Shown here: positions 47,713 to 51,861 of the stretch, one piece after another | How the letters are laid out: each line of letters opens with the position of its first letter | How positions within the stretch are numbered: the stretch's first letter is position 1 | Assembly: GCF_904846075.1 (NCBI RefSeq) | Contig: NZ_CAJGZH010000001.1 | Location: 558,001 to 622,000 of the forward strand | Length of the DNA stretch: 64,000 nt | Source: Psychrobacter glacincola | Lineage (GTDB): Bacteria > Pseudomonadota > Gammaproteobacteria > Pseudomonadales > Moraxellaceae | Direction: 5' to 3' | Program-made: the position numbers and the translations under genes | The notes under the pieces: model-generated | What the model was told of the DNA's origin: nothing | What the model saw: only the letters and a program-made list of their open reading frames with translations | Database searches by the model: none

Positions 47713-47764
47713 ATTTTTATAGCAGCACTATTTTATCAGTCGTCAAATGCAGCGACGCCATCAT

Positions 47765-47796
47765 AAAATCCCAAGTTAACGCTTGGGATTTTTTCG
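47765..47796 (+). terminator. Terminator of the FAH-family gene
   Basis: AATCCCAAG / CTTGGGATT stem, loop TTAACG, followed by T6; about 50 bases after the stop and 25 before the Pho boxes. Confidence 0.8.
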
Positions 47797-47819
47797 TTTT
47801 ATAAGGTGCTTACAAAGTG

Positions 47820-47859
47820 CTGTCATGAGACTGTCATCTATGTTTCAACGTTCTGTCAT
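47820..47859 (+). promoter_or_regulatory. Tandem Pho boxes upstream of phoX
   Basis: CTGTCAT occurs at 47820, 47831 and 47853, and a degraded copy at 47842, so four units sit on an exact 11-base pitch. 47820-47837 (CTGTCATGAGACTGTCAT) is a classical 18-bp Pho box. PhoB binds such direct repeats with an 11-bp step under phosphate starvation. Confidence 0.8.
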
Positions 47860-47961
47860 AAACTCTCGGTAGACTTAGGCGTAATTCGTATTTTTGTGGT
47901 GATAATTTTAAAGCCGCGCCCAACTCTCCGCCAATCCAGCCTAATAGCAAGGTGACTGATA

Positions 47962-50163
47962 ATGACATTATTGAATAATAAACAACCACTTGCCCATGAA
48001 GTCGTTGAAGACTCTAATCCGACTGACAATATCGATTTTCAAACCGTTATTAGTCGTCGTTTAAATCGTCGTAGTATCCTAAAAGGTGGCACAGGATTGA
48101 CGGCGGCGGCTTTTTTTGGGGCGCTACCTTTGGTTGGCTGTAGCGATGATGATGACAGCAGTCCTATCAAAAATACTGATAATAACGCGGCTATCCCTGC
48201 ACAGGGGGATCTCAAACGTCCTGAGACTTTGAAGTTTACGGCAGTGGCGCATTCAACTGCCGAAACGATGAGCGTGGCAGCAGGCTATAAAGCCGAGATG
48301 ATATTACCACTGGGTACGCCGCTGATATCTGGTATCGACGATTGGAAAGACAACCGAGAGCAGTCGGCAGAGTCATTCGAGTGGCGCATGGGTGATAACC
48401 ATGATGGCATGTGGTTCTTTGGTAAAAAGGGCGGCGCTTATGATGCCAAAGCGGCAGAGAATGGTCTACTGGTGATGAATCATGAATATGTAAACAGTAA
48501 TGAGCTGAGTCCGTTTGGCTATCATGTGATCCAAGATAACAAAGCCGCGCCCATCTTTAAAAATAGTCGACTCGCGAGTGACGTGCGCCGAGAAGTCAAT
48601 TGCCATGGGGTAGCAGTGGTCGAGATGAAACGCCGCGCTGATGGCATGGGCTATGAGATGGTGACTGATTCGAAATATAATCGCCGTCTCACGAGTAGTA
48701 GTACGGCGCAGTTGACAGGGCCAGTTGCTGGTTCTGATTTGGTCAAGACTAAGTTTGATCCGACAGGCTTTCAGACGCGCGGCATCAATAATAATTGCGG
48801 TGCAGGCTTGTCACCTTGGGGTACCTACCTGACCACCGAAGAGAACTTTTTAGGGGTATTCGCCCGTGGGCAAGATGCTAGCCAATTAAGTGATGGGCAA
48901 AACTATGGTCGCGAACGCTACGGTGCAACAGAGGATTTCCCAGGCTGGGAGTATCTGTGGCACACACCTGAAGCCAAAGATGCCAAGATAGCCGATGAGT
49001 TTTCGCGCTGGGATATGACCGCCGTCGGTACCAGTGCGGCTGACGATTATCGTAATGGCTTTAATACCTTTGGCTATATCACCGAAATTGACCCTTTTGA
49101 CCAAAACTCTATGCCGCAAAAACGTACGGCACTGGGACGTTTTGCCCATGAAAACTGTGCTTATGCTCCGGTTGAACAAGGCAAACCGGTGGTCTTTTAT
49201 ATGGGCGATGATGCTCGCGGCGAATATATTTATAAGTTTGTCTCCAAAGCCACATGGTCAAATAGTGATATCGGCGGTGGCTTAAAAGCGGGCGATAAGT
49301 ATTTGAATGACGGTACGCTCTATGTTGCTATCTTTAATGAAGATGGCAGCGGTGAATGGAAAGCACTCGTCCATAGTCAAAACGGACTGGATGCTTCCAA
49401 TACGGTATTGCCTTTTAATGGACAAGATGAGGTGTTGGTTTTTGCTCGTGCCGCAGCAGATGTGGTCGGTGCAACCAAAATGGATCGACCAGAGTGGGTA
49501 TCGGTTAGCCCTATGACGGGTGAGGTATACGTCACATTGACCAATAATAAATATCGCGGCGTACGCGAAGATCAACCTGTGTCAGCCTCTAATCCGCGTA
49601 GCTATCAAGCAGGTGAAAAAGCGGCAGGTAATGACAACGGTCATATCATTCGCTGGGCAGAAGCAGGTGGCGATCATGCGGCCATGAGTTTTGAGTGGGA
49701 TATTTATCTGTTTGCCACGCCTTATGATCTGACCGCAGAAAATTTGTCACAGTTAAATGATAGCAATGATTTGTCTTCTCCCGATGGTTTGTACTTCGAT
49801 CCGCGTGGCGTATTATGGATTCAGACCGATGACGGCGCTTATACCGATACCAGCAGCTGTATGTTACTGGCGGCGCTGCCGGGTAAAGTCAGTGATGGGA
49901 CAGCCATAACGACCTCAGCGGGACAACAAACACGAGTTGGGATGCCTGCTAGTAATGACAATATCAAACGTTTTTTTGTCGGTCCTGAAGGCTGTGAAGT
50001 CACAGGTATTACCATGGCTCCTGACTTTAAAACCTTATTTATCAATATTCAGCATCCGGGTAATACTTGGGGCGCTGTTGCTGGAGGCAGTACGCCGCGC
50101 TCAGCGACCGTGATGATTACGCGTGAAGATGGCGATGTCATACTGGCAGAGTCGTTTGTCTAG
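47962..50163 (+). CDS. phoX: PhoX-type alkaline phosphatase (DUF839), Tat-exported
   Basis: 733-aa secreted calcium/iron-dependent phosphatase family. A twin-arginine signal SRRLNRRSILKGG (about 31-43) is followed by a hydrophobic stretch ending ALPLVGC, where Cys60 is a plausible lipobox, so it may be a Tat-exported lipoprotein. Later motifs include GVAVVEMKRR, WGTYLTTEENF, FGYITEIDPFD, ENCAYAP and SPDGLYFDPRGVLWIQTDDG, and the ending GPEGCEVTGITMAPDFKTLFINIQHPG typical of PhoX. It lies behind tandem Pho boxes, so induction by phosphate starvation through PhoB is expected. AAGGTG is the ribosome site. Confidence 0.92.
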   Translation: MTLLNNKQPLAHEVVEDSNPTDNIDFQTVISRRLNRRSILKGGTGLTAAAFFGALPLVGCSDDDDSSPIKNTDNNAAIPAQGDLKRPETLKFTAVAHSTAETMSVAAGYKAEMILPLGTPLISGIDDWKDNREQSAESFEWRMGDNHDGMWFFGKKGGAYDAKAAENGLLVMNHEYVNSNELSPFGYHVIQDNKAAPIFKNSRLASDVRREVNCHGVAVVEMKRRADGMGYEMVTDSKYNRRLTSSSTAQLTGPVAGSDLVKTKFDPTGFQTRGINNNCGAGLSPWGTYLTTEENFLGVFARGQDASQLSDGQNYGRERYGATEDFPGWEYLWHTPEAKDAKIADEFSRWDMTAVGTSAADDYRNGFNTFGYITEIDPFDQNSMPQKRTALGRFAHENCAYAPVEQGKPVVFYMGDDARGEYIYKFVSKATWSNSDIGGGLKAGDKYLNDGTLYVAIFNEDGSGEWKALVHSQNGLDASNTVLPFNGQDEVLVFARAAADVVGATKMDRPEWVSVSPMTGEVYVTLTNNKYRGVREDQPVSASNPRSYQAGEKAAGNDNGHIIRWAEAGGDHAAMSFEWDIYLFATPYDLTAENLSQLNDSNDLSSPDGLYFDPRGVLWIQTDDGAYTDTSSCMLLAALPGKVSDGTAITTSAGQQTRVGMPASNDNIKRFFVGPEGCEVTGITMAPDFKTLFINIQHPGNTWGAVAGGSTPRSATVMITREDGDVILAESFV

Positions 50164-50391: not shown

Positions 50392-51861
50392 ATGCCCAGT
50401 CCAAAACCTTTAGAAACCATTCATGATTTATTTGCCACCACTCGGCGTCCAACTGCTATTGAGTCGGATACTGGTGAAGGTTTTCAGGGCGATGTCTATG
50501 AAGAGTTGGCGAAACTCGAATATATTTATGTCGATGAGCTGAGCGCCGAGACGGTGGACAACAGCTATAGCAAACCGCATCAGCCTATTACGTTGGTTGA
50601 TTTTTTTGAAGGCTTGGCTCAGTTGGCAACGATGGGCGTGGTGGAAGTCACTGATATTGTAGAGGCTATCCATCGTGAGATCCTGCTACGTCCTTTAGGG
50701 CGGTTTAATAAAGGCAATATTGAGCACTGGCAGCACGGTATCACGGGGCGGATTTATGGCACGGTGCGTTATACGATGCAATTGGTGGGCAATAATCTTG
50801 CCTCAGGGCTGCGTCTTTATAACACTGTTTCTAAACCCAAAAACATTCAACCTTTACCCAAAAACTTACGGCGCTTGGTCAATATTCTAAATGGCGTCAT
50901 GGGCGATCACCTTATCACTCATCACAATCCATTGGCAGTATCGATGGTGCTATACGATGAATACAATCGTGTACAAAGTGGTGCGCTGTCAGGGCGCGTT
51001 ATTATCTTATGCCATGGGCTTTGTATGAGTCATTTGAGCTGGCAGGTATCTGGAGAAGGCAATTTGGGTGAAGTGTTGGTCAATCACTTGCCAAAAGCGA
51101 CGGTGCTGTATTTAAACTATAATACGGGTCGGCGTATTTCTAGCAACGGACGTAGCTTTGCAAAAGTCTTGCAAGATTTGGTTGAGAATAATCCTGACGT
51201 CACTCAGATAGATTTAATCGGTCATAGTATGGGGGGATTATTAAGCCGTAGTGCGTTGTTTTACGGTAAAGAGCAAGGCTTTAGCTGGGTCAAACGCGTG
51301 GGCAATCTTGTCACCTTAGGCTCACCGCATCATGGCGCAAGCTTGGAGCAGATTGGACATTTTGTTCAAGATAAAATCGCTAAGCTGCCTTTTGCAGGAT
51401 CATTGGCTAAATTGGGCGACTTGCGTAGCGCTGGTATTATAGATTTACGTTACGGCAGTATTCGCGATGCTGATTGGAAGTCTACCGAAGGGCGCAGTGT
51501 GCTGCCAGCAGAGTTTCGTCATCCCACGCGTTTGCCCCTGCATGTGAATACCTATTTAGTGGCGGCAGCTTTGATTGAAACTCATTATGAATCTAAGACC
51601 ACAAGTTTGCTTGGGGACGGATTGGTCTCAGTAGAGTCAGCGCTCGGCGAATATACCGAAGAGCATACGCTAGCAGTACCAGAGGGACATAAGGCGATTT
51701 TTTATGGCGTCAATCACATGAATTTAATCTACAGCGATAGAGTACATGAGCAAGTTATTGCTTGGTTGTTGGATAATAGGCTAGGCGATGCCCATGATGC
51801 AAAGTATGGGCTTGATAGTCGTATCTATTCTTATCCAGAAGTGGATGAAGTGGCCAATTAA
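50392..51861 (+). CDS. Alpha/beta hydrolase, PGAP1/lipase-like
   Basis: 489 aa, soluble. The C-terminal two-thirds is an alpha/beta hydrolase: oxyanion region VIILCHGLCMSHLSW, nucleophile elbow LIGHSMGGLLSRSAL, followed by LVTLGSPHHGASLEQIG and the probable catalytic Asp/His near GDGLVSVESALG and YGVNHMNLIYSD. The GSPHxG pattern is shared with PGAP1-like acyl hydrolases and triacylglycerol lipases. There is no signal peptide, so it probably acts in the cytoplasm on lipids or polyester-like substrates; substrate unknown. A 165-residue N-terminal region is of unknown function. Confidence 0.85.
   Translation: MPSPKPLETIHDLFATTRRPTAIESDTGEGFQGDVYEELAKLEYIYVDELSAETVDNSYSKPHQPITLVDFFEGLAQLATMGVVEVTDIVEAIHREILLRPLGRFNKGNIEHWQHGITGRIYGTVRYTMQLVGNNLASGLRLYNTVSKPKNIQPLPKNLRRLVNILNGVMGDHLITHHNPLAVSMVLYDEYNRVQSGALSGRVIILCHGLCMSHLSWQVSGEGNLGEVLVNHLPKATVLYLNYNTGRRISSNGRSFAKVLQDLVENNPDVTQIDLIGHSMGGLLSRSALFYGKEQGFSWVKRVGNLVTLGSPHHGASLEQIGHFVQDKIAKLPFAGSLAKLGDLRSAGIIDLRYGSIRDADWKSTEGRSVLPAEFRHPTRLPLHVNTYLVAAALIETHYESKTTSLLGDGLVSVESALGEYTEEHTLAVPEGHKAIFYGVNHMNLIYSDRVHEQVIAWLLDNRLGDAHDAKYGLDSRIYSYPEVDEVAN

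Follow-up and report, generated by a model that had tools for sequence, protein, structure and literature searches.

Which of the described phosphate-responsive promoters come closest to the one in front of the phoX gene of Psychrobacter? Acinetobacter belongs to the same family as Psychrobacter. In Acinetobacter baumannii, the expression of olsB goes up under phosphate limitation, and the Pho box of olsB has the same consensus, CTGTCATNNNNCTGTCAT, as the site considered here, in front of a different gene (PMC11828411). According to a review, the Pho box is made up of 7 well conserved and 4 less conserved bases, with CTGTCAT as the motif in E. coli, PhoB binds such 11-nt direct repeats head to tail, and the number of repeat units varies in Streptomyces coelicolor, which has both simple and complex operators (PMC4415409). 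A structural model lets PhoB sites overlap the -35 region, with contacts to sigma and alpha (PMC3348028), and the spacing between the Pho box and the core promoter is described as strict (PMC10294691).

Here we consider a window of 64 kb, that is, the whole stretch of Psychrobacter DNA that was analysed, in which an array of four CTGTCAT-like units precedes phoX. To judge from the nearest phoX relatives, the host is probably a near relative of P. immobilis and P. cibarius. On comparative sequence evidence, we predict that phoX is under the control of PhoB, with a probability of about 0.92.

Half-site array and the gene behind it

The features of the locus are as follows.

47765 to 47792, + strand: terminator-like hairpin plus T-run, lying after the upstream FAA-hydrolase gene and before the phoX promoter (only from a consensus scan, with 1 hit against 0.3 expected)
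47820 to 47826, + strand: putative PhoB unit 1, CTGTCAT (7/7), distal pair (sequence read, shuffle test, matrix scan)
47831 to 47837, + strand: putative PhoB unit 2, CTGTCAT (7/7), distal pair (sequence read, shuffle test, matrix scan)
47842 to 47848, + strand: putative PhoB unit 3, GTTTCAA (4/7), proximal pair, T for G at position 3 (sequence read, conserved TTCA core)
47853 to 47859, + strand: putative PhoB unit 4, CTGTCAT (7/7), proximal pair, adjoining the promoter (sequence read, conservation)
47870 to 47875, + strand: -10-like hexamer TAGACT, 10 nt past unit 4 (conservation across Psychrobacter promoters)
47962 to 50163, + strand: phoX, PhoX alkaline phosphatase, 733 aa (PF05787; PDB 3zwu)

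The initial annotation had described CTGTCAT at 47820, 47831 and 47853 together with a variant at 47842, and reading of the sequence confirmed that the four units start exactly 11 bases apart. The array is thus a direct repeat of CTGTCAT-like 7-mers at the 11-bp spacing of a Pho box. Within the 249 bp of intergenic DNA (47713-47961), four-unit scores reach a maximum of 25 out of 28 at spacing 11, while the spacings 8-10 and 12-15 give only 14-16. None of 20,000 dinucleotide shuffles, scored on both strands, reached 25, the top shuffle being 20, and the runner-up array elsewhere in the window scores 18. With at most two mismatches, CTGTCAT-N4-CTGTCAT occurs three times in the window, where 0.58 occurrences would be expected; the phoX site is the only perfect match. 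An extra half-match, CTTACAA (4/7), lies in register upstream of unit 1 at 47809-47815 and reads CTYACAM in the nearest relatives.

The array is a predicted Pho operator of a known kind, with the layout of the E. coli pstS promoter, and shows no essential difference from the Pho box as set out in the review (PMC4415409). The pstS promoter of E. coli (NC_000913.3) likewise has four units at 11-bp spacing, which match CTGTCAT at 7, 7, 5 and 6 positions there and at 7, 7, 4 and 7 positions at phoX. In both promoters, the third unit is the poorest match and has T in place of G at position 3; unit 1 of the phoB box of E. coli carries this substitution as well. A -10-like hexamer lies exactly 10 nt past unit 4 in both cases; in E. 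coli pstS it is TATTTT, which we take to be its -10. Unlike in E. coli, the array here precedes phoX, and the pstS and phoB genes of the host carry two-unit boxes only. The four-unit operator is here found on the gene of an exported phosphatase and not on that of a phosphate transporter, and the PhoB/PhoR logic of E. coli would be extended to Psychrobacter.

The phoX product matches both the family profile and a solved PhoX over its full length: the hit to PF05787 has an E-value of 6e-134 and 448 bits (cut-off 24) and covers profile positions 2-515 of 515, and the hit to PDB 3zwu has an E-value of 2.5e-107 and covers residues 89-729. By eye, it has a twin-arginine signal (SRRLNRRSILKGG) with a lipobox-like LVGC after it, and the open reading frame at 47962-50163 is the sole PhoX match of the genome. 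Transcription of phoX would start near 47882. The hexamer TAGACT at 47870-47875 is a modest match to TATAAT (4/6) and was absent from the output of a generic promoter scan. The gene after phoX (50392-51861) encodes a PGAP1/DUF676-like alpha/beta hydrolase.

Register and promoter geometry in related species

For the comparison, 73 loci with phoX relatives were used (the best 80 of 89 stretches), which include 64 Psychrobacter rows with upstream DNA, counting the window, and 50 distinct Psychrobacter promoters. Among the rows, L065 was anchored by hand, L073 was left uncounted, L074 had no anchor and L072 was without upstream DNA. In the 50 distinct promoters, the mean number of matches to CTGTCAT is 4.92, 4.86 and 4.32 at the offsets -33, -22 and -11 from unit 4, respectively, and at most 3.06 at all other offsets from -48 to -1. 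Therefore, the 11-base register is kept across Psychrobacter, and the loss of spacing in orthologous phoX promoters that had been named as grounds for refuting a Pho box is not observed.

When the gap between unit 4 and the hexamer was allowed to vary from 9 to 12 nt, it was 10 nt in 68 of the 73 rows, a count in which the scoring slightly favoured 10 and some automatic anchors were wrong (L009, L041, L042, L045, L051, L052 and L054). Re-anchoring required a gap of 10 and TANNNT, so that the gap and the hexamer are partly circular there; the remaining 5 of the 73 rows then also have the gap of 10. With TANNNT required, the hexamer is TAGACT in 36 of the 50 distinct promoters. The box would thus lie over the -35 region, with the putative -10 at a fixed distance.

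Four units are not universal in the phoX promoters of Psychrobacter. Both distal units have at least 5 of 7 matches in 46 of the 64 rows, and the other 18 have a partial distal pair or none. Six of the seven Moraxella rows keep units 3-4 (4-5 and 6 of 7 matches, respectively) and the 10-nt gap; two of these six, L060 and L071, have a weak four-unit array. In the seventh row, L056, only unit 4 is good. Some promoters (L010, L012-L014, L020 and L068; L027 and L029) have two or three units, with a unit 3 that looks unit-1-like or fused. By eye, it looks possible that the array was shortened by deletions of 11 or 22 bp that left fused units (the L010 group and L027/L029).

The window was also scanned with a PhoB position matrix, as had been proposed at the outset. 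The matrix was built without phoX, from 34 pstS and phoB box rows comprising 23 distinct 18-mers. Of the 35 distinct boxes in the list, the deviant phoB box L134 was excluded; the list did not include pstS of G011 and G021, which has no box, or pstS of G028, which has four units. Among the 127,966 places of the window, units 1-2 rank first by a wide margin, with 20.2 bits against 11.1 for the next place on all 18 positions, and 23.5 against 13.9 when only the 14 unit positions are scored. In the latter case units 3-4 are second, with a narrow lead (13.9 bits, against 12.7 for the third place), and ninth when the linkers are counted (7.2 bits on all 18 positions). Units 2-3 rank only 49th or 40th. 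The low rank of units 2-3 compared with units 1-2 and 3-4 therefore favours a predicted placement of the dimers on units 1-2 and units 3-4.

By contrast, a 34-nt model (R1) that also took in the linkers and the -10 of the 34 pstS and phoB boxes failed to single out phoX, which was ninth of 10 hits in the genome (9.1 bits, E-value 8.6). It was dropped as overfitted to the linkers and -10 of the training set, and it recovered its own two training sites.

Could units 3-4 work alone, with units 1-2 as a functionless relic? The 18 of 64 Psychrobacter promoters that lack the full distal pair are still anchored on units 3-4 and the -10 hexamer, as this explanation would have it. We nevertheless regard it as distinctly unlikely, in view of the conservation of unit 1, whose positions 2-7 have 0-1 changes per column compared with about 10 in the upstream flank (46 promoters; partly by construction), and of the matrix scan of the window, in which the distal pair is stronger than the proximal one.

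The weak third half-site

Changes per column were counted on a quick phoX tree for the 46 four-unit promoters. These rows were chosen by units 1 and 2 and not by unit 3, which had half weight in the anchoring. The mean number of changes per column is 1.57, 2.43, 3.0 and 0.86 for units 1-4, respectively, 1.67 for the -10 hexamer, 10.45 for the upstream flank and 4.27 for the downstream leader. Within unit 3, positions 1, 2 and 7 are free, with 8, 8 and 4 changes, positions 4-6 have none, and T occupies position 3 in 45 of the 46 promoters. The unit at 47842 had been called decayed, which is not borne out, as its TTCA core is conserved no less than that of the perfect units. Since positions 4-6 are unchanged and T is present at position 3, unit 3 is rather a kept variant than a decaying copy.

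The consensus G at position 3 of unit 3 is found in 14 of the 18 Psychrobacter promoters without the full distal pair, against 1 of the 46 with it. A tentative explanation is that unit 3 is kept weak by selection, which would make phoX dependent on both dimers and confine its expression to strong starvation, and that lineages losing the distal pair regain the G and obtain a one-dimer switch. We find this doubtful, the more so as there is no parallel gain in unit 4, which is perfect in 38 of the 46 promoters that have the distal pair and in only 6 of the 18 that lack it in full.

Independent-pairs tests were performed on the quick tree, using five pairs on well-supported branches. Within Psychrobacter, the G at position 3 goes the same way as the distal pair in a mean of 0 pairs and the opposite way in 2, with no difference in 3 (lowest p 0.25); no pair is contrary for this trait. 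A unit-3 score of at least 5 goes the same way in 0.2 and the opposite way in 1.2 pairs, and a perfect unit 4 the same way in 1.5 and the opposite way in 0. With Moraxella added, the values are 0.9 same and 2.0 opposite for the G, and 0.2 same and 1.7 opposite for the unit-3 score (lowest p 0.125). None of the pairs tests for an improvement of unit 3 upon loss of the distal pair is significant, the five pairs representing too few independent events.

PhoB, PhoR and further Pho boxes

The host genome encodes both PhoB (TIGR02154, 332 bits, cut-off 296) and, adjoining it, PhoR (391 bits, cut-off 334). From residue 127 on, 60 of 103 residues of this PhoB are identical to E. coli PhoB. In the alignment to the E. 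coli protein, the DNA-contacting helix is kept with one replacement: D192-R193-T194, D196-V197-H198, R201, R203 and T217-V218-R219, which we assume to be residues that touch DNA, are retained, and R200 is replaced by K.

The perfect 18-mer of the box occurs once in the 3.3-Mb genome (5 contigs), at phoX. There are three genome sites with one mismatch, located in front of pstS (L076), in front of phoB (L078) and within an unrelated gene (L077), the last of which is CoA-transferase-like by eye. The phoX promoter thus shares its box with the core regulon genes pstS and phoB, where the distances from the box to the start codon are 74 and 88 bases, respectively. Looser matches are mostly background, because with at most three mismatches there are 232+222 places in the genome compared with 155+151 for a reversed control pattern, only about 1.5 times as many. 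We examined 30 of the 36 places with at most two mismatches; 21 of them are inside open reading frames of 150 aa or more, and 5 are at most 320 bases ahead of a correctly oriented open reading frame, including those of phoX, pstS and phoB.

Such boxes recur among the 30 Psychrobacter genomes compared. With a two-unit box defined by at least 11 of 14 matches, phoB was found in 29 of the 30 genomes and has the box in all 29, pstS was found in all 30 and has it in 28, and phoX has it in 23 of the 23 genomes examined. As a control, 29 rows read in the wrong orientation score 7-10. A phoX match is present in 26 of the 30 genomes; in G021 and G023 the match is short or distant, and G014, whose phoX is split, was excluded from the box count.

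Only G021 and G011 have a pstS without the box. In G021, the main pstS match is without an array, and a second pstS-like gene (L201, G021:C32:77700-78400) has an array of 20/28 upstream. G011, a Psychrobacter genome rated 100% complete, has neither PhoB nor PhoR above the cut-off, no phoX match and no box at pstS (L155, L198 and L200). Its best PhoB match is 209 bits (cut-off 296) and its best PhoR match 148 (cut-off 334; PhoR was sought in four genomes), and it retains other PhoB-like regulators. This is an apparent loss of the Pho regulon. The lack of phoX in G011 is weak evidence, because G005, G012 and G025 also have no phoX match and yet have phoB; the telling point is the absent pstS box, a single case.

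G011 bears on the question whether the array is bound by another regulator of the OmpR family, with phoX answering another signal. Tandem half-sites are common in that family, related regulators do exist in the host (22 matches to the PhoB model, one of them above the cut-off), and PhoB has K in place of the E. coli R200. Even so, such an assignment is highly improbable: the remainder of the recognition helix of PhoB is kept, a CTGTCAT-like unit at 11-base spacing also precedes phoB and pstS, and the box is missing at pstS of G011, which lacks PhoB and PhoR but keeps other PhoB-like regulators. The presence of PhoB and PhoR, the kept helix, the boxes at pstS and phoB and the conserved spacing together support the original proposal of a Pho box before phoX. 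Single copies of CTGTCAT are frequent (24 on both strands of the window), yet the chance recurrence of a 7-mer is a negligible explanation for an array whose score is reached by 0 of 20,000 shuffles and whose register is conserved across 50 distinct promoters.

Predicted regulation of phoX

With PhoB as the regulator, two head-to-tail PhoB~P dimers most likely activate phoX at low phosphate. When phosphate is short, PhoR would phosphorylate PhoB. One PhoB~P dimer would then occupy units 3-4, at about -40 to -23 and overlapping the -35 region, and a second dimer would bind units 1-2 directly upstream, head to tail, and help to keep the first one on the weaker unit 3. The pair of dimers would extend over about -62 to -23 relative to the predicted start. 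Their joint recruitment of the sigma-70 polymerase to the -10 hexamer, which lies 10 nt downstream, would lead to production of the exported phosphatase. We infer two-dimer occupancy and cooperativity for this promoter; not every species needs two dimers, because 18 of the 64 promoters are without the full distal pair. Induction of phoX by phosphate limitation, which the initial annotation had put forward as firm, is a strong prediction by comparison. Among the literature matches listed, no Psychrobacter expression data were found in the titles and abstract openings.

The species with two-, three- and four-unit phoX promoters constitute a natural series on the use of two dimers and of a poor half-site. 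Four-unit arrays are also seen in front of pstS, with a score of 25/28, in G001 (L152) and G028 (L164), while the other boxed genomes have two units there; G001 has a four-unit array at phoX too.
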